This document shows, one piece after another, positions 2,527 through 61,725 of a stretch of DNA of 64,000 nucleotides; position 1 is the first letter of the stretch; each line of letters starts with the position of its first letter. Under the pieces are notes generated by a model. The model ran no database searches. It was not told where the DNA came from and was given only the letters and a program-made list of their open reading frames with translations. This DNA comes from a cyanobacterium endosymbiont of Epithemia clementina EcSB. GTDB taxonomy: Bacteria > Cyanobacteriota > Cyanobacteriia > Cyanobacteriales > Microcystaceae. Location: the NCBI RefSeq assembly GCF_029919255.1, contig NZ_CP123991.1:2023833-2087832 (forward strand), given 5' to 3'. The translations under genes were made by a program, and so were the position numbers.

Positions 2527-2530
2527 TCAC
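2433..2530 (-). repeat. Solo, diverged end of the dispersed IS982-associated repeat
   Basis: The stretch can be aligned by eye with 43690-43800: both carry a gtta-type block, then a shared core tattgagaataataa, then a similar c-t-rich tail ending in a(c/t)acg. In this copy there is no recognisable transposase next to it, so it is best read as a solo end left after decay. Confidence 0.45.
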
Positions 2531-3216
2531 GTTAAATAAAAAGCAACAATTGCACTACTTAAAGGAACTGTTAAATTATCAAGTCCCCATTTAGAAAATG
2601 CTTCCAATCCTGTTGCTATAACGGAAACTAATAAAGAAGTTATAAGAATTAAATTAATAGACTCTCCTGTAAAAAATAAAATAATACTGGTAACAAAAAA
2701 ACTCACGCCCATCATTGTTAGTGAGCCTTCCCAACTTTTTTTGATTCCCAAAATTTGATAAGGGTGTCGACCAAATCTTTTACCAATAATTGCTGCCATT
2801 CCATCTCCCCAGGCCATTATTAAAATGCCAATAGCAGTATATTGAGGTTTATTTACTATCCAAAACCAATAGGTTAAAATCCCAATACTCACCGCATAAA
2901 AAAATGTTCCTAAGCTTTTACGCTCCACACTATTAATGCTAGGAAGAATCGGTAAAAAATAAGAAATTAGCGCAATGAAGCTAGCAATCAATGAGGCAAC
3001 TAACAATAACCATGGCGGCAGTTTAAACCACCAAGCAATTAAAATGACATTACCAGAACCAATGTGAACAACTTTACGGGTAAACTCGGCATCAGCACCC
3101 GTTAAACGGTTCATTCTTTCAGCTAGACCAATTATAGTTCCTAAATAAATTAGGACCAAACTTAGGGGATACCAGACAGATGAAAGAAGTTCCAATTTAG
3201 GGAGTAATTTAGACAA
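2527..3216 (-). CDS. Phytol/polyprenol (diacylglycerol) kinase family membrane protein
   Basis: A 229-residue polytopic membrane protein of the CTP-dependent polyprenol/phytol kinase family (VTE5/dolichol kinase-like). About six hydrophobic segments are visible. The family segments are the early VVHIGSGNVILIAW region, the MAWGDGMAAIIGKRFGRHPY core (about residues 134-153) and KKSWEGS shortly after. In plants and cyanobacteria such kinases phosphorylate phytol released from chlorophyll, feeding tocopherol synthesis or re-esterification. The frame opens with TTG; no better ATG gives the full first helix. It is divergent from the crtD gene with about 100 bases between them. Which alcohol it uses cannot be read from sequence. 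Confidence 0.75.
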   Translation of the reverse strand: MSKLLPKLELLSSVWYPLSLVLIYLGTIIGLAERMNRLTGADAEFTRKVVHIGSGNVILIAWWFKLPPWLLLVASLIASFIALISYFLPILPSINSVERKSLGTFFYAVSIGILTYWFWIVNKPQYTAIGILIMAWGDGMAAIIGKRFGRHPYQILGIKKSWEGSLTMMGVSFFVTSIILFFTGESINLILITSLLVSVIATGLEAFSKWGLDNLTVPLSSAIVAFYLT

Positions 3217-3320: not shown

Positions 3321-4826
3321 ATGTCACACTCCATTATTGTTATCGGTGCTGGAATTGGAGGATTAACCGCAGGGGCATTACTCGCCTGTCGTGGTTATGA
3401 TGTAACTGTCTATGAACAAGCAAGGGTTCCTGGCGGGTGCGCATCCACCTTCAAACGGCGGGGGTTTAACTTTGATGTAGGAGCGACTCAAGTGGCAGGA
3501 TTAGAACCTGGAGGCATTCATCAACGAATTTTTGCTGAATTGGGGATAGATATTCCCCCTGCTACTCCGTGTGATCCAGCTTGTGCCGTGTTTTTACCAC
3601 GGGAAACTGAACCCATTCAAGTATGGCGAGATCCTAAGAAATGGCAAGTTGAAAGACAAAAACAATTCCCAGGAAGTGAACCTTTTTGGCAATTGATGGC
3701 TAAATTATTTCGTGCTAGTTGGAACTTTCAAGGACGAGAGCCAGTGCTACCTCCTCGCAACATCTGGGATCTCTGGCAGTTAATTTCTGCACTGCGGTTA
3801 GACACTTTTGTCACTGTTCCCTTTGCTTTGATGACAGTGGGGGATGTCTTACGCTTGTATGGGTTAGCCAATGATCAACGCCTTAAAACTTTTCTGGACT
3901 TGCAATTAAAGCTTTATTCTCAGGTGAATGCTGATGAAACTGCTTTGTTATATGCAGCCACTGTCTTAGCGGTTTCCCAAGCTCCGCAAGGCTTGTATCA
4001 TTTTCAGGGTAGTATGCAAGTGTTAAGTGATTGCCTAGTAGAAGCATTGGAAAAACATGGGGGAAAACTGAAACTTGGCTACAGTATCGAACAAATTCAC
4101 CCCCAGAATAATCGCGTTAAACAGGTCACTATCCGTCATCAGAAAACTGGAGAAACCAGCACAGAAACCGCTGATCATGTCGTTGCTAATGTTACGATTC
4201 AAAATCTCATCAAGTTATTAGATATTTCCTCGTCTCTCTTCTGGAAACTTTATCAAAATCGCACAGAAAAACTACCTCGACCATCAGGGGCATTTGTCGT
4301 TTATTTAGGGGTTGATCGTCAGGCCATTCCAGATAACTGTTCTTCCCATTTACAATTTCTTTATGATGATAATCAACCCATTAGTGAAAATAATTCTTTG
4401 TTTATTTCAGTAAGTGAACCGGGGGATGGACGTGCTCCCAATGGAAAAGCTACCATCATTGCTTCATCCTTTACTGACCCTCAAATTTGGTTTCATAAAA
4501 CCCCAGAAGCCTATCAGGCTCTAAAACAACAATATACTTCAGAAGCGATTGTCCGTTTAAGTTCCTATTTTTATCTTACTCCAGATACTCTTATTCACCA
4601 AGAAGCCGCGACGCCTTGCACATTTGCTCGATTTACCGCTAGAGATAAAGGTATTGTTGGGGGTGTTGGTCAGCGTGTCTCTACTTTTGGACCTTTTGGC
4701 ATCGCAACCCGAACTCCGTTAAATAATCTTTGGTTAGTAGGAGATTCTACTCATCCAGGGGAAGGAACTGCAGGGGTTAGCTATTCAGCTTTAACCGTTG
4801 TCCGACAAATCGAGATGAGTGAGTAA
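3321..4826 (+). CDS. crtD: CrtD-type carotenoid desaturase (C-3',4' desaturase)
   Basis: A 501-residue FAD-dependent phytoene-desaturase-superfamily enzyme. The N terminus carries the dinucleotide-binding fingerprint VIGAGIGGLTAGALLA followed by the acidic YEQ, then PGGCASTFKRRGFNFDVGAT. The C terminus has the FAD-closing LWLVGDSTHPGEGTAGVSYS (about residues 472-491). The GGCASTFKRRGF and DVGATQVAGLEPGG wording, from memory, fits cyanobacterial CrtD (Synechocystis Slr1293 type) better than CrtH/CrtISO, which has GGSAGYFQREGY there. CrtD desaturates the end of monocyclic carotenes on the way to myxoxanthophyll. The frame is complete. CrtH-type isomerase is the main alternative. Confidence 0.75.
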   Translation: MSHSIIVIGAGIGGLTAGALLACRGYDVTVYEQARVPGGCASTFKRRGFNFDVGATQVAGLEPGGIHQRIFAELGIDIPPATPCDPACAVFLPRETEPIQVWRDPKKWQVERQKQFPGSEPFWQLMAKLFRASWNFQGREPVLPPRNIWDLWQLISALRLDTFVTVPFALMTVGDVLRLYGLANDQRLKTFLDLQLKLYSQVNADETALLYAATVLAVSQAPQGLYHFQGSMQVLSDCLVEALEKHGGKLKLGYSIEQIHPQNNRVKQVTIRHQKTGETSTETADHVVANVTIQNLIKLLDISSSLFWKLYQNRTEKLPRPSGAFVVYLGVDRQAIPDNCSSHLQFLYDDNQPISENNSLFISVSEPGDGRAPNGKATIIASSFTDPQIWFHKTPEAYQALKQQYTSEAIVRLSSYFYLTPDTLIHQEAATPCTFARFTARDKGIVGGVGQRVSTFGPFGIATRTPLNNLWLVGDSTHPGEGTAGVSYSALTVVRQIEMSE

Positions 4827-8340: not shown

Positions 8341-11300
8341 CTATATTTGTTCAATCGCTCCTTCTGCATGATGAACAATAGCTCGTAATTTTTTTAAAGT
8401 TTCTTTCTCTACAGTTTGCCATAATCCCCTTAAATTTGCTTCTAATAACCTTTCGGCCATGTCCCGTAAAGCCCAAGGATTTTTTTTATAAATAAACTGT
8501 TGAACCGTTTCATCTAATAAATAAGCTTGAGCCACTCCTTCATACATAAAATCTTCTACACACCTAGCCGTAGCGTCATAAGCAAATAAATAGTCAACTG
8601 TAGCTGCCATTTCAAATGCTCCTTTGTAGCCATGACGCATCACACCGGCAATCCATTTAGGATTAATAACACGGGAACGGTAAACTCTAGCTATTTCTTC
8701 TTTTAATAACCTAACTTTAGGATTAGATGAGATAGAATTATCTCCAAAATACGTCTCAGGATTTTTATTGGTTAATGATCTAACAGTAACAGTTAGTCCT
8801 CCTTGAAATTGATAATAGTCATCAGAGTCTAATAAGTCATGTTCCCGATTATCTTGATTATGTAAGACAATTTGTAACTGTTTCAAGCGTTTTTCAAATA
8901 CTTCTGGAACCCCATGACCGATGCCATCTTTATCATAAGCATAGCAACTCCAATTCAAATAGGCTTTTGCTAAATCTGCGTCATCTTTCCAATTTTGAGC
9001 CTCAATTAACCCTTGCAACCCTGCCCCATATGCTCCAGGCTTTGAGCTAAATATTCGATATTGAGCCTTTAGTTTGGCTTTATCTTCGGTCAACCCTTTT
9101 TTTTCCCAAAAAACTTTATCTTCTTTAACTTGGGCAGCTAAGGGATTAATTTCTTTTTCTTCTTTTAGGTCTGACACTCCACTTATCGCATTGTACATCA
9201 ATTGTAGAAGGTTGGGAAAGCTATCTCTGAAAAAGCCCGATACCCGAACCGTTACATCTATACGTGGTCTTCCTAAGACTGATGGACTAAGGATTTCATA
9301 GCCTACAACCCGACGAGATAACCCATCCCAAATTGGTTGAACACCCAATAAAGCAAACACTTGCGCTACATCATCTCCTCCAGTTCGCATAGTAGAAGTC
9401 CCCCAGATAGAAATCGCTAAAGTTTTGGGATATTCTCCATGTTCTTGAGTGTAGCGTTCAATAACTGTTTCTGCAGCTTTTTTTCCAATATTGTAAGCAG
9501 TTTCAGTAGGAATAGCACGGATGTCGACTGAGTAGAAGTTACGACCAGTGGGGAGAACGTCTGGCCGTCCTCTGGTTGGCGCGCCAGCAGCTCCACTAGG
9601 AATGTATTCGCCGTTAAGTCCTTTAAGAAGATTAGTAATTTCTTGAGGGGTTTGGTAAAGGGATGGCAGGAGACGAGTTTGTATCCATTGAAGTTCGGTT
9701 CGAGTGGCGTTGAGGGTACAAGAAATAGGCGTTTGGGGAGTGAGAATAAGAGAATCAATGATTTCGCTCGCGTAGGTTTCTAGAACTTCTGTAGCTTGTC
9801 CAGTAGTACGACATTGTTTTAGTTTTAGGCACAGATGTGGAGGCGCCGAGGGAGAAAAAGAGGGGGGATAAAATGGGGTTGTGGGAGAAGTGGTTAGGGG
9901 GAAGAAGTTGAGATCTAAGTCTTGAGCGATCGCGGTGGTTAATCCTAGGCGATTGAGGTCAGGAAAACGTGCAATGGCTAGGGTTAATCCTGTGAGTTGA
10001 GGGCGTCGGGGGCATTGTCCAAAAATGTGTAGACCATCCCGAATTTGGGCTTCTTTTAATTCACATAAATAGCCGTCTGCAAGGGTTAGAAATTGGCTTA
10101 AAGTGTTGGTGGTTAAGTCAATACCTAGATCTTGATTGAGACAAGTTTCGTTGATCAGTTGAGTGATGCGATCACTGATAATTTTTAGGCGAGAGGGATT
10201 GAGAGTTTGAGCTTCATAATATTCATCAATTAGGGTTTCAAGTTTTTCTAAGTCCCCATAGAGTTCAGCGCGGGTTAAAGGAGGAGTTAAATGATCTAAA
10301 ATAACAGCCTGGGAACGACGTTTTGCTTGAGACCCTTCTCCTGGATCATTAACAATAAATGGATAAAAGTTAGGAAGTGTTCCTAGAGTTATTTCGGGAT
10401 AACAATTAGCAGAAAGAGCTAGACTCTTTCCAGGCAGCCATTCTAGGTTACCATGTTTGCCAAAATGAATAATAGCTGAGGCATTAAAATGATGTTTTAA
10501 CCAATGATAATAGGCTAAATAATGAGGCGTAGGTTCTAAATCAGGAGCGTGATAATTTAAACTAGGGTCTAAATCATACCCCCTCGAAGGTTGAATGCCA
10601 ACAAAAATGTTTCCCAATTGAATACCAGGAACATGAAAGGATGAGATAGATTGGGATTGATAAAAAGTTTTCCAACGTTGCTCAATCTGGGTCTGAATTG
10701 AATGAGGTAAGGTTTGAAAATAAGTACAATAGTCTGATTTAGAAAGGGATTGATAAATTGGTCTTAATTCTTTTCCCTCGGGATCATTAGTAACTCCAGT
10801 GGTTAACCGTTCGATTAATTTATCCTCTGTTTCTGGTATATCTATAACCTGATATCCAGCTTTTTTTAATGCCTTCAAGGTTTCGAGGCAACTTGCCGGA
10901 GTATCTAACCCCACTCCATTGGCAATTCGACCATTTTTATTAGGATAATTAGCGAGAATTAAGGCAATTTTTCTTTCAGCGATAGGAGTAGTTTTTAACC
11001 GTATCCAATTCTGAGTTAAGTCAGCGACAAAATTAATGCGATCACCGATAGGTTGATAAATCACAACATCGGTTTCTAAGTCTTTATTCCAAGCTTGAAC
11101 CGATTTGAAAGAAACTGCGCGGGTTATAATTCTACCATCCACTTCAGGAAGGGCAACATTCATCGCAACATCACGGGGGTTTAATCCTTGATAACTCGAT
11201 TGCCACTGTTCAAAAGTACCCCCACTTAAAATTACCTGTAGGACGGGAAGATTCAAATTTTTCCATAGATTTAAATTATCAATGTTTCCTGAGTCAGAAT

Positions 11301-12114
11301 TTATTTTAGCTAAAGAGAAGCTGGTAGTATTCAGAATTAATTGAATTGGGTTATTTTTAAATTGTTTAAAATAGTCAATCAGTTTTCCTTGAACTTCCAG
11401 ATCTCGTAAAGAAGAAACAAAGATTGGCCAAGAAGTTAAGCCCCTTTTTGCTAAGGCTTGACAAAGATTATCAATAACGAGTAAATTACCTGCTAAATAA
11501 TTAGAACGATAAAAAAGTAAGGCAAGATTAGGATAAGAATTAAGGGAAGTCTTATCTAAATCTTGCCAAGAGTATAGACCAAACTTAGGAACGGGTTGGG
11601 GAGTGGGAGGATGATAGGATGTTTTTTGATAAATATCACAGATAAATTTTAGAGCATTTACCCAGTTTTCTATGCCCCCTTCAGTTAAATACCGCCATAA
11701 TTGGTTACTGTGACTTAAAGAAACTGTCGAGTGACTCATTAAGTCAGGATCAGGGTGATCATCGCCTGGTAGAATAAAGAGATGAATCTTTAGAGAAATT
11801 GCTATTTCTTTAACGACTTCTAATCCATAAGACCAATAAGACCGACCTCCCAATAATCGTAAAACAATAACCTTAGCTTGGGACAATACTGTGTCAGCAT
11901 AGCTGTCGATACTCAGTTGTTGTTGTAATTGTAGAAGATTAACGGCCCGTATTGCGGGGAAATTAGTCGGTAAATGCTTAATAGCATAGGCCAGGGTTTG
12001 AATATCTGTATCGGCTGCACTAAGGAAAATAATCGGAGCCGGGTTTTGTTCAACAAAGATTACACCTTCGTTATCAGGATTCCAGCCTCCTGGGGTAGCA
12101 GCAATTCGATGCAT
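8341..12114 (-). CDS. cobN: Cobaltochelatase subunit CobN
   Basis: A 1257-residue large chelatase subunit of the CobN/ChlH/BchH family, which binds the corrin or porphyrin ring and inserts metal with an AAA+ partner. The N terminus MHRIAATPGGWNP, the QPSRGYDLDPSLNYHAPDLE and HFGKHGNLEWLPGKS segments, and YIPSGAAGAPTRGRPDVLPTG in the C-terminal half are CobN-typical. ChlH proteins are longer and start differently. The reading frame is uninterrupted over 3.8 kb, so cobalamin synthesis is under selection here although neighbours upstream are broken. Cyanobacteria generally lack dedicated CobST, and the AAA+ partners may be shared with Mg-chelatase (established idea, not visible here). The gene is divergent from a histidine kinase gene. 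Confidence 0.9.
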   Translation of the reverse strand: MHRIAATPGGWNPDNEGVIFVEQNPAPIIFLSAADTDIQTLAYAIKHLPTNFPAIRAVNLLQLQQQLSIDSYADTVLSQAKVIVLRLLGGRSYWSYGLEVVKEIAISLKIHLFILPGDDHPDPDLMSHSTVSLSHSNQLWRYLTEGGIENWVNALKFICDIYQKTSYHPPTPQPVPKFGLYSWQDLDKTSLNSYPNLALLFYRSNYLAGNLLVIDNLCQALAKRGLTSWPIFVSSLRDLEVQGKLIDYFKQFKNNPIQLILNTTSFSLAKINSDSGNIDNLNLWKNLNLPVLQVILSGGTFEQWQSSYQGLNPRDVAMNVALPEVDGRIITRAVSFKSVQAWNKDLETDVVIYQPIGDRINFVADLTQNWIRLKTTPIAERKIALILANYPNKNGRIANGVGLDTPASCLETLKALKKAGYQVIDIPETEDKLIERLTTGVTNDPEGKELRPIYQSLSKSDYCTYFQTLPHSIQTQIEQRWKTFYQSQSISSFHVPGIQLGNIFVGIQPSRGYDLDPSLNYHAPDLEPTPHYLAYYHWLKHHFNASAIIHFGKHGNLEWLPGKSLALSANCYPEITLGTLPNFYPFIVNDPGEGSQAKRRSQAVILDHLTPPLTRAELYGDLEKLETLIDEYYEAQTLNPSRLKIISDRITQLINETCLNQDLGIDLTTNTLSQFLTLADGYLCELKEAQIRDGLHIFGQCPRRPQLTGLTLAIARFPDLNRLGLTTAIAQDLDLNFFPLTTSPTTPFYPPSFSPSAPPHLCLKLKQCRTTGQATEVLETYASEIIDSLILTPQTPISCTLNATRTELQWIQTRLLPSLYQTPQEITNLLKGLNGEYIPSGAAGAPTRGRPDVLPTGRNFYSVDIRAIPTETAYNIGKKAAETVIERYTQEHGEYPKTLAISIWGTSTMRTGGDDVAQVFALLGVQPIWDGLSRRVVGYEILSPSVLGRPRIDVTVRVSGFFRDSFPNLLQLMYNAISGVSDLKEEKEINPLAAQVKEDKVFWEKKGLTEDKAKLKAQYRIFSSKPGAYGAGLQGLIEAQNWKDDADLAKAYLNWSCYAYDKDGIGHGVPEVFEKRLKQLQIVLHNQDNREHDLLDSDDYYQFQGGLTVTVRSLTNKNPETYFGDNSISSNPKVRLLKEEIARVYRSRVINPKWIAGVMRHGYKGAFEMAATVDYLFAYDATARCVEDFMYEGVAQAYLLDETVQQFIYKKNPWALRDMAERLLEANLRGLWQTVEKETLKKLRAIVHHAEGAIEQI

Positions 12115-46108: not shown

Positions 46109-46290
46109 GGAACTGTTCGTAATAACGGATATTGAATGAACAATAAGCTAGCCAACGGTACAGTAACAAATGAACAATCCAAGCAGAACGAGCTATGCTG
46201 ATATCTGTCTTCTATAGAAAGGAAGAAAGAAAACAGGGACTCAGAGGTATATTAACAGCAGTTGATTCTGACAGAATAGATAACTGAAAT

Positions 46291-46384
46291 TTATTTTTCA
46301 ATACGAGGGGGTGCCCGAAAGGCGATAGTAAAAAAGAATAAAGCTATAGCTATAGCAAGAACCATAATAAGCAGCACTTTTCAT
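46291..46384 (-). pseudogene. psbT: psbT (photosystem II protein T), 2-nt deletion
   Basis: Starting at 46384 the minus strand reads MKSAAY. Two bases are then missing from codon 7, and the other frame continues VLAIAIALFFFTIAFRAPP and RIEK to a stop at 46291. With the two bases restored it is exactly 31 residues and aligns along its whole length with PsbT (Synechocystis form recalled as MESVAYILVLTMALAVLFFA and so on). The conserved REPP is RAPP here. As it stands translation ends in a nonsense frame. PsbT is a single-helix subunit at the PSII dimer interface, normally co-transcribed behind psbB, which is absent. Confidence 0.88.
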
Positions 46385-46448
46385 TTTATTGGTTTTCTAA
46401 AATTGCCTGCGTTCCCAGTGTATCAAAAAAGTTGAGTATTTTGGCTCA

Positions 46449-46496
46449 AAAAAATAGAGGTCAAGAGAAATATATTTCTCTTGACCTCTATTTTTT
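46449..46496. terminator. 48-base perfect palindrome
   Basis: The two halves (46449-46472 and 46473-46496) are exact reverse complements with no loop, bounded by A- and T-runs. It lies upstream of the broken psbT on the minus strand, where psbB would have ended. Confidence 0.6.
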
Positions 46497-46520
46497 GGGA
46501 TAAATTTTTCCCAACAAAAA

Positions 46521-46561
46521 ACAACACAACAGTATTGGACAAGGCAATACTGTTGTGTTGT
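46521..46561. repeat. Perfect 17-bp stem-loop
   Basis: Arms 46521-46537 and 46545-46561 pair exactly around a 7-base loop (gacaagg). It is only 25 bases from the preceding palindrome. Confidence 0.65.
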
Positions 46562-46676
46562 AATAGTGATATTGCTACTTTATTTTTCAATATCCTTCAA
46601 TTAAACTTAAAAAGCTTGAAACATCAACATTGTTGTAAAAAGTACCAACGATTAATAGAATCTTAAAAGATTTGAT

Positions 46677-46715
46677 TTCAGTCTTTTGGTTGGCAATGCC
46701 AACCAAAAGACTGAA
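46677..46715 (-). terminator. 18-bp stem-loop terminator of the FAD oxidoreductase gene
   Basis: Arms 46677-46694 and 46698-46715 are exact complements with a 3-base loop. It lies 16 bases after the stop codon of the minus-strand gene. Confidence 0.75.
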
Positions 46716-46731
46716 AAGCTAACTATCTATT

Positions 46732-48816
46732 CTAATGAGCATCAGATAACAAAGTCTGAGGAAAAGTAGTAGGATTTCCTTTCATTTCAAGTCTTTGACG
46801 CAATTCCTGTAACAAAGGTTCGTGATCAGGTAAATTGTCCACAAACTCATAAGGTAAAGTATTGCGTTCTAAAGCCAAATTGGCTAAATTTCCAGCAGCT
46901 GCTCCTACAGACCATTCAAACCCATGTACCCGATAAGCTGCTGCCGCAATATGGCTCGTAGCAATACTTTTTCCAGCCACAATTAAATTATCTATTTTTT
47001 GGGGAATCATTGATCGTAGGGGAATTTGAGCTGGATGAGATCCTCCGTGGGCAATGCGTACGTCTTGGCGCTCGCGGTTACTAGGTCTTTCGGGGGGGGA
47101 AAATGCCATACAGGGATGGAAATCAATCATGTAGTTAACAATTCCTACTGAATCATCATAAACGGTTGCATGGGTACGCTGAGTAACTAGATAAGAAGGA
47201 TTAATACTAATATTGACCATTTTTGATTCTAACTTGGCAATGGTGTCCCGAACATCCTTATACATGGGACGGGGTAAATTAGTTCGGTAAAAATCTTGCC
47301 AATAATCTTTTGTCGAAATATCAATTTCGTTAATGCTAAACCCATCTTTGTGCTCAACAGAAGGTCGCCCAATAATGCGCCTTCCTTCCCGGATATAAGG
47401 GTATTTAGACAACCCGTGGGCAGTTCCCATAGGCGAATCTAACCCCTTTAAAAATCGATGGTTAGGATGGGGTTTTTTGACTCCATATCCGAGGCGTGAG
47501 TCAGTGGTTCCTGCCACCAACCAGTAGTAAAAACCTTTGGCTAATTCTTCCCCTTTTCTCAGGGTTTCTTGACGTAATCCCCCTTTCCATCCCCCAGGTT
47601 GTAGTTGTCCACTGTCTTGTAATTGATTACGGGTATAAACTAAGTTGTCATAACGAGTCCCAGGGCGATAATCATTACCCCATAACCAATTTTGCATGGA
47701 TATATCTCCTGGAGTGGGACGGTTAACAGTCATCCGTCCAGCGCGAATAGGTTTTCCTTTTTCGGGACTCCAAATGCGTCGATAGGTGAAGATTAAATCG
47801 AAATAAGCTAGTTTCCGATTGGAATCGTAACCGTAATAGGGAGCATACTGCTCATAAAAATTTGGTTTATATTGAGGTTGGGGTTCCTTGGTATGTTCCA
47901 TAGCAAAGGTATAGGTAAACCCTTGTGTGCAATAGGGATCACCTTGCTCGTTGGGGGCTGAAGGGTTGAGATGGGAACGAGGATCTAACCCAACCCGATA
48001 GGGAATGTCTGCTAAAGCAACAATTTCTCCTGTTTCTGTAGCTTCGATGACAAACCAATCAGCTTTTTGGGATGGATTTTGAGATTTAGGAACAAAACGA
48101 ACAATCTTTTTAGTTAACCGTTGAGAATTTTGATAGCTATAAGCGTCGTCTATGATAGCAGATAGGGGTTCATGGTTGAGGGGAGGAGTTCCAATCGCAT
48201 TGTTGTGTTGAATAGCGACGGCTTGTTGGATCTGTTTTCCATCTTTACTCAATTCTAAGTCTTTAATAACTGTTGCGGGGAACCATCTGAGCTGTCCTCT
48301 TCCTAGGCGTTCAGCTTCTTTTAACTGTCGGTACATTATGTTATGTCCATCCTTGGGGAGAAAACAGCTTTCACTTACCCAACAGTCTCCAGGGTTGAGG
48401 GTTCCGTAACCACTAGTGATCGCGTTTCGTAGCTGTTGATATCCCTTAGGAAAAAGCTGTAATGATCGCTGTTTTTTGCCTTCATCGAGGGCGGAGTTTC
48501 CCTGAGATGATATTTGTCCTCCTACCCAGTCGGAAATATCCGTCAGACATACTGTTCGTCCCCCTAATAAGGATTCATAGGCGGTGGCTGCCCCTGCGAG
48601 TCCTCCTCCAACAATCAGTAAATCACAGCTTATGGTTTCATCGGGGTCACGAGGTGATGCGGCGATCGCTGGTACAGTTGATAAAACTGATTGTCCACAG
48701 AGAACACTTAAGAATAAAGACACTACAATACCCTGTAGTCCTTTATTTTTGCTGTCTTTTCCTTGCTGAAAACATCTTGACCTTAGTGATTGCGTTCGGT
48801 TACTTTTCCCCATCAT
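46732..48816 (-). CDS. Exported FAD-dependent oxidoreductase
   Basis: A 694-residue protein with an N-terminal export signal (basic start, hydrophobic VVSLFLSVLCGQSVLS, cleavage near AIAAS at about 54). The FAD fingerprint is CDLLIVGGGLAGAATAYESL (about 64-83). Near the C terminus DNLIVAGKSIATSHIAAAAY and RVHGFEWSVGAAAGNLA match the end of the FAD_oxidored family (PF12831), which includes enzymes of unknown substrate. The second ATG (residue 2) is equally possible as start. It is complete. An 18-bp hairpin follows. The substrate cannot be told. Confidence 0.8.
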   Translation of the reverse strand: MMGKSNRTQSLRSRCFQQGKDSKNKGLQGIVVSLFLSVLCGQSVLSTVPAIAASPRDPDETISCDLLIVGGGLAGAATAYESLLGGRTVCLTDISDWVGGQISSQGNSALDEGKKQRSLQLFPKGYQQLRNAITSGYGTLNPGDCWVSESCFLPKDGHNIMYRQLKEAERLGRGQLRWFPATVIKDLELSKDGKQIQQAVAIQHNNAIGTPPLNHEPLSAIIDDAYSYQNSQRLTKKIVRFVPKSQNPSQKADWFVIEATETGEIVALADIPYRVGLDPRSHLNPSAPNEQGDPYCTQGFTYTFAMEHTKEPQPQYKPNFYEQYAPYYGYDSNRKLAYFDLIFTYRRIWSPEKGKPIRAGRMTVNRPTPGDISMQNWLWGNDYRPGTRYDNLVYTRNQLQDSGQLQPGGWKGGLRQETLRKGEELAKGFYYWLVAGTTDSRLGYGVKKPHPNHRFLKGLDSPMGTAHGLSKYPYIREGRRIIGRPSVEHKDGFSINEIDISTKDYWQDFYRTNLPRPMYKDVRDTIAKLESKMVNISINPSYLVTQRTHATVYDDSVGIVNYMIDFHPCMAFSPPERPSNRERQDVRIAHGGSHPAQIPLRSMIPQKIDNLIVAGKSIATSHIAAAAYRVHGFEWSVGAAAGNLANLALERNTLPYEFVDNLPDHEPLLQELRQRLEMKGNPTTFPQTLLSDAH

Positions 48817-53102: not shown

Positions 53103-53372
53103 ATGAGTTTAACAGCTAATGAAAAACAGGAGCTGATGAGTTCCTACCAGGTCCATGAGACCGATACAGGTTCTCCTGATTTACAAGTTGCTTTACTAAC
53201 GAAGCGAATCAGTCAATTAACCGGACATCTACAAAAAAATCCTAAGGATCATGCTTCTCGTCGAGGACTCCTAAAAATGATTGGTCGTCGTAGACGGTTG
53301 CTTGCCTACATCAATAGCAAAGATACAAACCGTTATCAAGCTCTCATTAAAAGCTTGGGAATCCGTCGCTAG
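53103..53372 (+). CDS. rpsO: 30S ribosomal protein S15
   Basis: An 89-residue S15: [73 protein letters not shown]. This is full-length. An in-frame upstream TTG would add 27 non-conserved residues, so the ATG at 53103 is taken. In relatives the next gene encodes a PAM68-like assembly factor, here a pseudogene 130 bases downstream. Confidence 0.95.
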
Positions 53373-54184
53373 ATTAAGCTCTCTTTATGACTTATCAAGC
53401 ATCTTCTAGAAGACTAAAGGACAAGAAGTATGTCCTTAAACTGTTCTAAAGACATACTTCATAACTTCTCATTGAACGACTTTCTTAAGTTTCAAAAAGA
53501 CCTATAGCTTCTAAATCTGCCCAAAATTATTTACCCTTTGAACCTCGCCAAAAAAAGAGGAAATTTTTTGAAACTTCCTCAACTTAGGGGTCAACTTCTT
53601 CGCCAGATCTCTCACTAACTCTCCATAAAATTCAAAAGATGCCGGCTTCAAGGCAATTCCTGATAATGTCAGTCGACAGATAATGTGACGAACGGCTTTT
53701 CTTCTGAAATTCCCACAACTTTAGGAATTTCCTCATTTTAATTTTTTATTGGCTCGTCAGCTATAACCGGCTCGATATTCCCACCGTAGTTGTTGGTACA
53801 GTGAGTTTGGGGTTCTTTGGGTTAAGGGTCTTGGGATTGAGCTACGGCATCTTTATCGACTTCTTAGGGTAAACCATAGAGAATGGGTAGTTGGTGGCGA
53901 TAGCAAGATTTGACCACGAATTTTGTTCGCACTGTCAATGCTTGGCGTGTGGAATATAGTTGTGTTTAAATTGATGCTAAAAGAGGTGGGTTTTGTATGA
54001 TCGTTCAACGATAGAAGACTGTAACATATTTATAGTGTCGTAGTGATAACTGAGGTTATTAGGATTCTTTTGTCTTTAGCACGAAAGCATAAATGTACTT
54101 CGTGCGACGCGATAAATTTACTAAACTAACATTAATTCAAGCACCAAAAAGGAAATATTTACTGACACCTTGAGGAATACAGCA
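53373..54184. other. Region between rpsO and aroF
   Basis: About 800 bases. Most of it (53504-53959) is the PAM68-like pseudogene. The last 200 bases should hold the aroF promoter. Confidence 0.6.
53504..53959 (+). pseudogene. PAM68-family photosystem II assembly factor, inactivated
   Basis: The former start codon is ATA instead of ATG: ASKSAQNYLPFEPRQKKRKF begins at 53504 and carries the LPFEPxxKKRK opening typical of PAM68. After stops and shifts, VSRQIM and PQL correspond to the VSRRMxRRxA and GIPTxLG region. The second hydrophobic part is well preserved: SYNRLDIPTVVVGTVSLGFF, then GLRVLGLSYGIF. The C-terminal part has further stops. PAM68 (Synechocystis Sll0933, recalled as next to rps15) helps early PSII assembly. 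With start lost and several stops it cannot be functional. Confidence 0.82.
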
Positions 54185-55406: not shown

Positions 55407-56165
55407 TTAAACACTTGAAATAAGTTGTAATATTCTAGAGGGATCTTCTAACTCTCCAATGATTCGCCTCACCGGTTCAGGCCAAACACGAATAAGAGTT
55501 GGTGTGGCTGAAATGTGATGAGTTTCGGCTTGGTCTAGGTGTTTAGAAATATCAATAACTTTAAGGGTATAAGGATGTTCTAATTCTTTTTCGAGCAACC
55601 TATGAATAATTTCTAAGGTTTGTTTTGTCGTGGTGCTATTTCCCGCTACAAAAAGACGCAAAATATATCCTTGATTAATTGTTGTATGATCTGTCTCATC
55701 TGATACAGAAAAAACTAACTGATGTTGGGACTCTTGGTTGCGATAATGGTCCCAAGACACAATCAAATCATGATTGTCCCACAGTTGAGGAAATTCGTCT
55801 CTATAGGTTTCTAAGATAATTGGGTTACAAGCTTCCTCTTGCCAGGTTGCTATCTGCCAAGTTAAGTCAGTCATTCCAAAGACGGAATTCAATAGGGGTT
55901 GATATCGTCTTAGGGGTGGATAAAGTTCAGCAACGGTTTTAACCTTGCCGTCTGTCTTAGAAAACCAACAATCAATGGTAGCTGTATAACCAGGAATTAA
56001 AAAATGAGGAGGTTCAGGTAAATACAATAATTCCTGCAAAGCTACACATAAATGAGAGTGCCATTTAACTTGCTTTGTGCGATCACAACAATAAATTAGA
56101 TCTCCGCCGGGGGTGAAAAGGGCAATGCCTTTAAAAAATTCTATTGGAACGACAGGAGTCATCAT
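55407..56165 (-). CDS. Protein with C-terminal KaiB-like domain
   Basis: About 252 residues. The N-terminal two thirds (IEFFKGIALFTPGGDLIYCC ... WDHYRNQESQHQLVF) are a cyanobacterial region of unknown fold. The C-terminal part, about 85 residues, is KaiB/thioredoxin-like: YILRLFVAGNSTTTKQTLEI, HPYTLKVIDISKHLDQAETH, ISATPTLIRVWPEPVRRIIG. KaiB and the N-terminal domain of the clock kinase SasA share this fold, so it may contact clock or other regulatory partners. A TTG 15 codons upstream is the alternative start. The frame is intact. Confidence 0.7.
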   Translation of the reverse strand: MMTPVVPIEFFKGIALFTPGGDLIYCCDRTKQVKWHSHLCVALQELLYLPEPPHFLIPGYTATIDCWFSKTDGKVKTVAELYPPLRRYQPLLNSVFGMTDLTWQIATWQEEACNPIILETYRDEFPQLWDNHDLIVSWDHYRNQESQHQLVFSVSDETDHTTINQGYILRLFVAGNSTTTKQTLEIIHRLLEKELEHPYTLKVIDISKHLDQAETHHISATPTLIRVWPEPVRRIIGELEDPSRILQLISSV

Positions 56166-56210
56166 AGAGTTAGAAGTTCCTGGGTCAAAATTGTTAAATT
56201 TTGACAACAA

Positions 56211-59560: not shown

Positions 59561-60541
59561 TTAAACCCTTCCACGACCTAACGCTAACCCCGTAACCAAC
59601 ATTCCTAAAACCAGAAATGGTTGTGCGCTAGATTGATATTTGACATCATTTTGCAGAGTATCTCTCAGAAAATACACATCTTGGAGGGTAATTTGAGGAA
59701 TCACTAACAATAACAATATGGCCGCATAGAGGTTTTGATGGATATAGATTAGATAGCCAGCAACCCCGACTTGAAAGACATCAATCATAATCACACAAAT
59801 CCAAGCTGCCGTATTTATTCCGAACATAACCGGGAGGGACTTTAACCCTAGCTGACGATCACCCTCGATACTCTTAAAATCATTAACGACCGCAATGCCC
59901 AAACCTACCAAACTATAGAACATGGTTAGGACCACAATTGTCCAATTTAACTCTCCGAATAAAGCGTGACCAGCCCACCAAGGTAAAGCGATGTAACTTG
60001 CACCAAGGGCATAATTTCCTAACCAGCCATTTTGTTTCAATTTTAAGGGAGGGGCTGAGTAGATATAAGCCACAAGTGCGCCTCCTAGGGTCAAAGAAAA
60101 CATCGTGGGGAACTTATGACCTGCCCAGATATCTAAAGCGTATCCTAGGACTAATCCTACCCCTAATAACACTAAAATTTGAGTGACTACTTGAGGAACA
60201 GAAATTGCCCCTGACGGAATGGGACGATAGGGTTCATTAATGACATCGATTTCGCGGTCATAAAAATCATTGGTAGTTTGAGTGTAGCCAGCCATCAATG
60301 GTCCTGAAAGCAACATGCAAGTGGCTATTTTAAGGACGTTTTCAAGCGTCCAGACATATTTTCCTGACGAGGCTGCGCCACAGACTACGCCCCAAATCAG
60401 GGGAATCCAGGTGATCGGTTTCATCAATTGCAGTCGTAATTTCCAAATCGATGTTTCCCCGGGAGCTGCCCCCTTCATCCCTAGTAGTTGACGGGTGTTC
60501 TTCCTCTCATCTTCAGTATCAGATATAGAAAATTCAGACAT
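59561..60541 (-). CDS. chlG: Chlorophyll synthase (UbiA family)
   Basis: A 326-residue prenyltransferase that esterifies chlorophyllide with phytyl/geranylgeranyl diphosphate. The first aspartate motif NDFYDREIDVINEPYRPIPS (about 91-110) is the ChlG-specific form of the UbiA NDxxD motif. The second region is AVVNDFKSIEGDRQLGLKSL (about 226-245). Eight or nine hydrophobic helices are present. The N terminus (MSEFSISDTEDERKNTRQLL) is soluble. An ATG two codons after the track's TTG is used. The frame is undamaged, remarkable beside broken PSII genes. A sequence alone cannot show whether it is active. Confidence 0.93.
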   Translation of the reverse strand: MSEFSISDTEDERKNTRQLLGMKGAAPGETSIWKLRLQLMKPITWIPLIWGVVCGAASSGKYVWTLENVLKIATCMLLSGPLMAGYTQTTNDFYDREIDVINEPYRPIPSGAISVPQVVTQILVLLGVGLVLGYALDIWAGHKFPTMFSLTLGGALVAYIYSAPPLKLKQNGWLGNYALGASYIALPWWAGHALFGELNWTIVVLTMFYSLVGLGIAVVNDFKSIEGDRQLGLKSLPVMFGINTAAWICVIMIDVFQVGVAGYLIYIHQNLYAAILLLLVIPQITLQDVYFLRDTLQNDVKYQSSAQPFLVLGMLVTGLALGRGRV

Positions 60542-60596
60542 AAGCAATTATGAATCAATACAATGGCATTTAATAATGAATTCACTAAGAAACTGA

Positions 60597-60627: not shown

Positions 60628-61725
60628 TTAGAAAGAAATAATCAAATAGTGATTTTGGAATTTTGCACCCCTAACAGGTTGTCCCCGTAAAGGCACAGGC
60701 AGGTCAATGTTTCGCCTTTGGTCTCCTGCTTCAATGGTAATTTCTGGCCCATATTGAGTCAGTTTAACTTGATTTTTATCGAATCCTGGTAAAAATACTC
60801 TAACTTCTCTAGAAACTGCATCGACCGTAATAGGTTGGGGGGGCATAGAATCAGCGAGAAAATCCGGTAAAGTATCCTGTAGAGATTGCAAATTTGTTCC
60901 TGTCAGTCTGGAAATAGATGTCACTGATAAAGGAGAGAATTCTTGGGACAGAGAATCACTAACTTGACCTTGATTAACCAAAACTCCTTTGACCATTAAC
61001 CCCACCTGTTGAGCACAACCCCAATAATATTTGGTTTGAGCGATCGCTAATTCATCATCAGTGGTCACTAAATAGCTTACCACACGGCTAGGATCAGCCA
61101 AAGCCTTTTTCCATTTCCCTAAGATATCATTGGCGCGATTAGTAGGTCCTTGAGTAAGATCATCGGCCGTCCAAGAGACATTTAAGATTGCACTAGTGAT
61201 TGGTTGAATAAAGGGGGAAAGTGTTTTCCCCACATCTGATTCTTTCAATACCTGAACAAATCGCCGTAGATACCAACTGAGAATTTCTGGAATTCCAAAC
61301 ATCCGTAGGGTACTTAGAGGGCTGTCACCGTCGTAGATAATAACATCGTACTTACCGCTTTGGTAATATTCCCATAGGGCATTGAGGGATAAAGCTCTAT
61401 CCATCCCTGGCAAAATACCCAATTCTTGACCATAGACATTTTTCAGAGTCGGCGACCGTAAATATTGGGATTCTAATTCTTTAACTTTTTCCCATCCTTT
61501 CTCTAACAGCAAAGTTGAGGATAACTTAACCGCAGTCAAATTAGGCGATACTTCTGTTGGGGAAGCATTCACAGGGGTCTCAAGTAGAGTGCTCAAAGTC
61601 GGTCCAGGGTTTTGTCCCACCAAGAGAACCCGTGACCCTAATTTGGATAGTTTTTGGGCAGTTGCGATCGACACTGAACTTTGATGACTATCGCCTTTAC
61701 CTAGAAAAGTCAAAATCAAAGTCAT
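60628..61725 (-). CDS. Get3/ArsA-like ATPase with HSP20-like C-terminus
   Basis: A 365-residue protein of the anion-transporting ATPase family. It begins MTLILTFLGKGDSHQSSVSI, the place of the deviant Walker A loop (GKGGVGKTT). Here the segment is GKGDSHQSS, so the signature glycine and lysine are replaced. A switch-like DVIIYDGDSPLSTLRM and a long C-terminal HSP20-like beta region (PITVDAVSREVRVFLPGFDK ... RGAKFQNHYLIISF) follow. Such proteins upstream of chlG are usual in cyanobacteria, with a suggested role in membrane protein or pigment-protein targeting. Reduced ATP binding is likely here or in the family as a whole. Confidence 0.75.
   Translation of the reverse strand: MTLILTFLGKGDSHQSSVSIATAQKLSKLGSRVLLVGQNPGPTLSTLLETPVNASPTEVSPNLTAVKLSSTLLLEKGWEKVKELESQYLRSPTLKNVYGQELGILPGMDRALSLNALWEYYQSGKYDVIIYDGDSPLSTLRMFGIPEILSWYLRRFVQVLKESDVGKTLSPFIQPITSAILNVSWTADDLTQGPTNRANDILGKWKKALADPSRVVSYLVTTDDELAIAQTKYYWGCAQQVGLMVKGVLVNQGQVSDSLSQEFSPLSVTSISRLTGTNLQSLQDTLPDFLADSMPPQPITVDAVSREVRVFLPGFDKNQVKLTQYGPEITIEAGDQRRNIDLPVPLRGQPVRGAKFQNHYLIISF

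Follow-up and report, generated by a model that had tools for sequence, protein, structure and literature searches.

The window analysed here, a stretch of 64,000 nucleotides from the spheroid body of Epithemia clementina (EcSB, whose genome is a single contig of 3,072,807 bases), carries an intact chlorophyll synthase gene (chlG), the remains of psbT and PAM68, and several open frames that served for comparison:

2527..3216, minus strand: open frame once called ‘phytol-kinase-like’, a name without library support
3321..4826, plus strand: crtD, carotenoid C-3',4' desaturase, open (TIGR02733, 772 bits, cut-off 549.7)
8341..12114, minus strand: cobN-type cobaltochelatase (the enzyme class of ChlH, for B12), intact, used as a control gene
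46140..46740, minus strand: psbT remnant, split between frames in a six-frame reading; its C-terminal piece matches PF01405 at 27.7 bits (cut-off 22.4)
53360..54130, plus strand: PAM68 remnant with stops and frame changes in a six-frame reading; one piece matches PF11947 at 42.8 bits (cut-off 25)
59561..60541, minus strand: chlG, chlorophyll synthase (UbiA family), intact, 326 amino acids, no stops

The chlG coordinates are those given by an ATG start (a TTG alternative lies at 60547). The encoded protein matches the NCBIfam equivalog model TIGR02056 at 574.8 bits (cut-off 436.45) over model positions 1-305 of 306, and carries both aspartate-rich prenyltransferase motifs, DFYDREID at residue 92 and DFKSIEGD at residue 221, which we take to be catalytic. 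An earlier sequence-only reading, which had described the frame as undamaged and its key residues as present, was thus correct on both points, as it was in calling psbT and PAM68 dead and in placing this genome at a particular stage of photosynthesis loss at which pigment genes are kept. The gene immediately upstream of chlG, likewise on the minus strand, encodes a Get3/ArsA-fold ATPase (60628-61725; NF050088, 565 bits; dN/dS 0.245 among bodies).

Four spheroid bodies were compared: those of E. clementina (G000), E. turgida (G002), E. pelagica (G003) and R. gibberula (G005), which form a monophyletic group with 100% support, sister to the free-living G001. Three genomes of 4.6-5.2 Mb (G001, G004 and G006, the last being Cyanothece PCC 8801) were taken as free-living, the assembly of G004 being 87% complete, and a genome of 1.44 Mb (G013) was taken as UCYN-A. 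The chlG gene was sought in EcSB and 28 relatives, and other families in eight genomes. Among the 80 loci listed, the nearest named relatives of EcSB ChlG are those of the R. gibberula endosymbiont (L002, 87%) and the E. pelagica endosymbiont (L003, 85%). The EcSB gene is, in these respects, an ordinary chlG in a setting that has already been described.

The protein has nevertheless changed at positions that seldom vary. Of the alignment columns, 168 show at least 98% conservation among 78 further cyanobacterial ChlG sequences. At these, ChlG of EcSB shows seven changes and those of the E. pelagica and R. gibberula bodies 13 each, compared with one in each free-living genus mate; leaving out each of the 78 in turn gives 0.54 changes on average and seven at most. 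In all three bodies ChlG is altered at residue 100 (A to V, beside the first aspartate-rich motif), at 212 and at 304 (A to S), and further changes cluster at 285-305; the changes at 100, 212 and 285-305 may be connected with the disappearance of phytyl diphosphate that followed the death of ChlP, described below.

Two other frames in the window had been grouped with chlG as undamaged pigment genes. The crtD frame is indeed open in EcSB and intact in all four bodies (dN/dS 0.194 over EcSB and the E. pelagica and R. gibberula bodies). The ‘phytol-kinase-like’ frame is likewise open, and intact in all four bodies (dN/dS 0.156 among the same three), so that part of the description stands; for the name, no supporting model was found in Pfam (E up to 10) or NCBIfam (E up to 1). 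Because both genes are intact in the E. turgida body, where chlG is wrecked, neither is tied to the chlorophyll pathway. A further protein of the window, with a C-terminal KaiB domain (55407-56210, minus strand), is intact in EcSB and in the E. pelagica and R. gibberula bodies, and is matched over 28% in the E. turgida body.

A retained pathway and a dead photosystem I

The genes that the sequence-only reading had singled out for checking, and others of the pathway, were found as follows. In EcSB and in the bodies of E. pelagica and R. gibberula, chlG, chlB, chlN, chlH, one acsF, chlM and also chlL (which adjoins chlN) are all open, so that, for the genes searched, EcSB retains an intact Mg-chelatase H subunit, ChlM, cyclase, DPOR and ChlG. 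Among the four, the pathway is wrecked in the E. turgida body alone: chlG, chlH, acsF and chlM survive there only as pieces with stops, and chlB/chlN as one broken remnant, while crtD, petB, petD and the nif genes are kept. Geranylgeranyl reductase (ChlP) is reduced to fragments in EcSB, several of them with stops, and to pieces in all four bodies; it is intact in G001, G006 and G013, and gave no match in the 87% complete G004. LPOR is broken in EcSB and in the E. turgida and R. gibberula bodies, intact in G001, G004, G006 and the E. pelagica body, and matched weakly in G013. The status of BciB, ChlI, ChlD, PsbA and PsbD is taken here from published work; sections of PMC5638926 and PMC12903740 report BciB, the 3,8-divinyl reductase, as missing.

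The same acsF paralogue is retained in all three pathway-keeping bodies (L186, L187, L188) and groups with L191, L192 and L183 and with L194 of UCYN-A, where it adjoins a radical-SAM frame resembling HemN; EcSB also holds a wreck of the other paralogue (G000:C1:2702557-2703423). The retained copy may be the micro-oxic form, ChlAII. The choice of isozyme is not relied on here as proof of a low-oxygen pathway, because LPOR of the E. pelagica body (L312, G003:C1:2180233-2181177; 490-494 bits, cut-off 331) is intact, and a statement that only dark or low-oxygen forms are kept would thus hold in two of the three bodies.

This inventory bears on the notion that ChlG is moonlighting, prenylating some other acceptor or serving as a membrane scaffold while no chlorophyll is made. 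Membership of the UbiA prenyltransferase family and the ChlG changes shared by three bodies (A100V and A304S, for example) are in its favour. The retention of chlH, chlM, acsF, chlL, chlN and chlB is left unexplained by it, and we consider it very improbable.

Equally, the genome speaks clearly on photosystem I (PSI). The psaA and psaB genes are intact in G001, G006 and G013 and partly split over contigs in G004; they are wrecked in the EcSB and R. gibberula bodies and gave no match in those of E. turgida and E. pelagica. In EcSB a remnant persists, shortened by deletion and bearing 19 stops within a single stretch of 370 codons, and an intact chlM follows it directly. Within this remnant (L317, 4116-6005) the front of psaA is fused to the middle of psaB, with the two matches overlapping at the joint, which looks like a deletion by recombination between two homologous genes. 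The earlier suggestion of a retained PSI, which would require chlorophyll as in UCYN-A, is refuted by this wreck and is almost certainly wrong for EcSB: nothing in its genome favours the idea. The UCYN-A-like G013 does keep psaA, psaB and chlP.

The psaB remnants of EcSB and R. gibberula, aligned to the intact psaB of G001, also allow the loss to be placed in time. Both have lost one base from a run of C and 15 bases in frame, and both have a stop at codon 431, read as TGA in one genome and as TAA in the other; psaB also ends at an identical point in the two, beyond which the same unrelated sequence follows (stops listed as shared past this breakpoint are not homologous and were left out of the count). 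A slip in a C run could arise twice; a common breakpoint is much less likely to. By these common lesions, PSI was dead before the lineages of EcSB and R. gibberula split, and the terminal branches leading to the two therefore postdate its death.

Selection after the loss of photosystem I

Rates of codon change were estimated by maximum likelihood with our own model of the GY94 type (F3x4), which ignores shifts in composition in the bodies. A test against dN/dS = 1 was made for seven of 13 genes, the values for the other six being estimates only. From the codon alignments were omitted nifN of G004 (a paralogue, 27.5% identity) and, for coverage below 85%, chlH and chlL of G004 and nifD of G001. 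As window controls, we used the 35 of 43 frames with orthologues at more than 85% coverage in the E. pelagica and R. gibberula bodies, a set that includes chlG and cobN.

For chlG, dN/dS is 0.272 in the bodies and 0.043 in free-living relatives, and equality is rejected (2dlnL 59.0), as is a value of 1 in the bodies (2dlnL 75.0); on the EcSB branch alone the rejection of 1 is weak (2dlnL 4.1). Measured by the yardstick that the sequence-only reading had proposed, chlG therefore falls in between, relaxed but not neutral. Over EcSB and the E. pelagica and R. gibberula bodies, the corresponding values are 0.084 for chlH, 0.090 for acsF, 0.096 for chlL, 0.107 for chlN and 0.133 for chlB, so that chlG (0.273) shows the weakest constraint among these six genes of the pathway; three of 34 other window genes exceed it in the same three genomes.

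The branches that postdate PSI death (EcSB and R. gibberula, in an alignment of five genomes with G004 left out) were then considered by themselves. There, five upstream chlorophyll genes give a dN/dS of 0.116 (2dlnL 669.2 against 1, 86.3 against free-living relatives) and chlG gives 0.367 (20.1 and 45.8), the two differing from one another with a 2dlnL of 25.7. Genes outside the pathway behave otherwise in the comparison with free-living relatives: nifK, nifE, nifN and petB jointly give 0.074 (408.7 against 1, 0.7 against free-living), and cobN gives 0.122 (248.7 and 0.0). Relaxation of the chlorophyll genes thus exceeds what is general in these genomes, although they remain far from neutral.

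Such values could in principle describe a pathway that is already useless and merely unbroken so far, as sections of PMC5638926 conclude for R. gibberula from raised dN, and as the sequence-only reading also allowed in supposing that pigment genes are just slower to decay. Several observations are of the kind expected from such decay: pathway-gene dN/dS is above that of free-living relatives, the E. turgida body has a wrecked pathway, and ChlP is dead in all four bodies and LPOR in three of the four. Against it, dN/dS after PSI death rejects 1 for the upstream genes and for chlG alike. Moreover, a single recent end of selection should give one neutral share of the branch, and the shares implied, about 8% for the upstream genes and about 34% for chlG, disagree; even the smaller predicts 3.2 + 4.2 = 7.4 stops in the five upstream genes of the two genomes, where none is seen. 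Simple slow decay is consequently disfavoured by the timing from psaB, by the dN/dS values and by the absence of stops, and we regard it as improbable. Because PSI was dead before the split and dN/dS after the split is below 1, selection outlasted PSI, and it very probably kept a working chlorophyll pathway. The further suggestion that chlorophyll-type products retain a role gains support from the same purifying selection.

What the product might be for is less easily decided. A regulatory role for chlorophyllide has been proposed in sections of PMC12903740: chlorophyllide or another intermediate would serve as a regulatory signal, acting by way of Scp/Hlip proteins or the tail of ferrochelatase to adjust the synthesis of heme and tetrapyrroles, and chlG would be a fading last step. 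The stronger constraint on the upstream genes than on chlG agrees with this published proposal, and one Hlip-like frame, with a stretch of the chlorophyll-binding type, is still open in EcSB. A merely fading chlG is harder to reconcile with its being intact in all three pathway-keeping bodies and rejecting neutrality there, and the presence of Hlip-like frames does not follow that of the pathway (a single one in EcSB, one with a stop in R. gibberula, no match in E. pelagica, in a search that also missed free-living G006, so that absence is weak evidence). On balance we find the regulatory explanation rather unlikely. For the same reasons (matches that do not follow the pathway, from a search that missed G006), small chlorophyll-binding proteins were set aside as a sink for chlorophyll.

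Cytochrome b6f as a possible destination, and known systems

The explanation that we tentatively prefer, while granting it somewhat less than an even chance as a complete chain, is that ChlG still functions as chlorophyll synthase, closing a pathway of low flux that selection kept after PSI was lost, and that its product would occupy the structural chlorophyll site of cytochrome b6f. Since ChlP is dead in all four bodies, the expected product is geranylgeranyl-chlorophyll, with ChlG presumably joining geranylgeranyl rather than phytyl to chlorophyllide; it would also be a 3,8-divinyl form if BciB is dead as published. The least certain step is the last, in which this product would fill the single such site of a complex that carries cyanobacterial respiration and that the spheroid body would need for powering nitrogenase and for protecting it. 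Cyanobacterial b6f serves both respiration and photosynthesis in the absence of a bc1 complex, and carries one chlorophyll (sections of PMC6616624), located where bc1 has helix H (sections of PMC12112970), and spheroid bodies are described as retaining respiratory chains and thylakoids without photosystems (sections of PMC11070190). The last source also describes isolated E. clementina bodies as colourless and without pigment fluorescence, which excludes much chlorophyll, though not one molecule per b6f.

All four bodies have intact PetB and PetD. The idea of b6f preceded the alignment of PetD; attention to particular residues came only with the alignment. PetD G136 and T137, which we take to hold the water on the magnesium of the b6f chlorophyll, are kept in EcSB and in the E. 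pelagica and R. gibberula bodies, and are replaced in the E. turgida body (G136A, T137I), two of 12 positions at which its PetD differs from six genus mates. A literature search found no paper on G136 and T137 as chlorophyll contacts. Among 77 other PetD sequences, 137 is T in all and 136 is G in 76 (one S), and 137 is the sole column changed in the E. turgida body among 64 that are otherwise invariant. These 77 comprise seven genus and UCYN-A sequences and 70 from a search of 194 genomes (the 30 best-scoring loci and 40 hand-picked rows, the lowest-scoring rows being unsampled; the bodies of E. adnata (CP076462) and R. gibba (CP067995), which are reported to retain at most a small part of the pathway, were absent from the search results). 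Solved PetD sequences read G-T at 136/137 in all five listed of the six matched, and our numbering agrees with the residues N118, F/Y124, V128 and A129 in PMC12112970.

That the sole body with a wrecked pathway carries G136A/T137I is a lead, drawn from an alignment, for the b6f proposal. A stricter form of it, in which the pathway is kept only to supply one geranylgeranyl-chlorophyll per b6f monomer and E. turgida has evolved a chlorophyll-free b6f with a remodelled PetD site, is possible but in our view doubtful. Several points count against b6f as the destination. The PetD change is found in one lineage only, and PetD of EcSB is itself quick (dN/dS 0.47, on few changes). The pathway is relaxed relative to free-living relatives and nif, petB and cobN are not, and chlG, as the most relaxed of the six genes, fits an upstream product better. 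The altered conserved columns of ChlG, the weak rejection of 1 on the EcSB branch and the colourless state of isolated bodies weigh on the same side. Finally, E. turgida b6f appears to do without home-made chlorophyll, since a conserved PetB (97.7% identical to that of R. gibberula, dN/dS 0.06, compared with 0.27 for its PetD) is kept beside a wrecked pathway.

If the pathway is kept to fill the b6f site, and one body has lost both, then evolution would have separated the structural role of chlorophyll from its photosynthetic role; the case would reveal which genes cannot be lost early by a nitrogen-fixing symbiont on its way to becoming an organelle, and would speak against viewing these chlorophyll genes as silent pseudogenes. 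We know of no established function for the non-photochemical chlorophyll in cytochrome b6f. By term search, b6f and PetD are absent from the main text of PMC12903740, and b6f from that of PMC5638926; in the library searched, none of the matches listed had a title or abstract opening with the b6f proposal.

The retention of chlorophyll genes without photosystems is itself already published (PMC5638926, PMC12903740). Sections of the former report nine of ten chlorophyll genes, including chlG, intact in the R. gibberula body without photosystems and with raised dN, and the R. gibberula genome compared here agrees for the genes searched; those genes are there deemed in effect pseudogenised, whereas here dN/dS rejects neutrality after PSI death. 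Sections of the latter report that RgSB, EcSB and EpSB keep all but three chlorophyll enzymes, with ChlP a pseudogene, and that EcSB has an almost complete pathway and a single Scp-like protein, both of which are seen here; Lpor is listed there as missing from all three bodies, whereas the E. pelagica body examined here has an intact LPOR. What is new is the dating of PSI death by shared psaB lesions, the continuation of selection on the pathway afterwards, and a testable proposal, involving b6f, for why the pathway is kept. UCYN-A, a diazotrophic endosymbiont of the same family, resembles EcSB in having chlG, chlH, chlB, chlN, chlL, acsF and chlM intact and differs in keeping psaA, psaB and ChlP. 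The E. turgida body, a sister-type body that likewise retains crtD, petB, petD and nif genes, differs from EcSB in its wrecked pathway and in the G136A/T137I substitutions of PetD.
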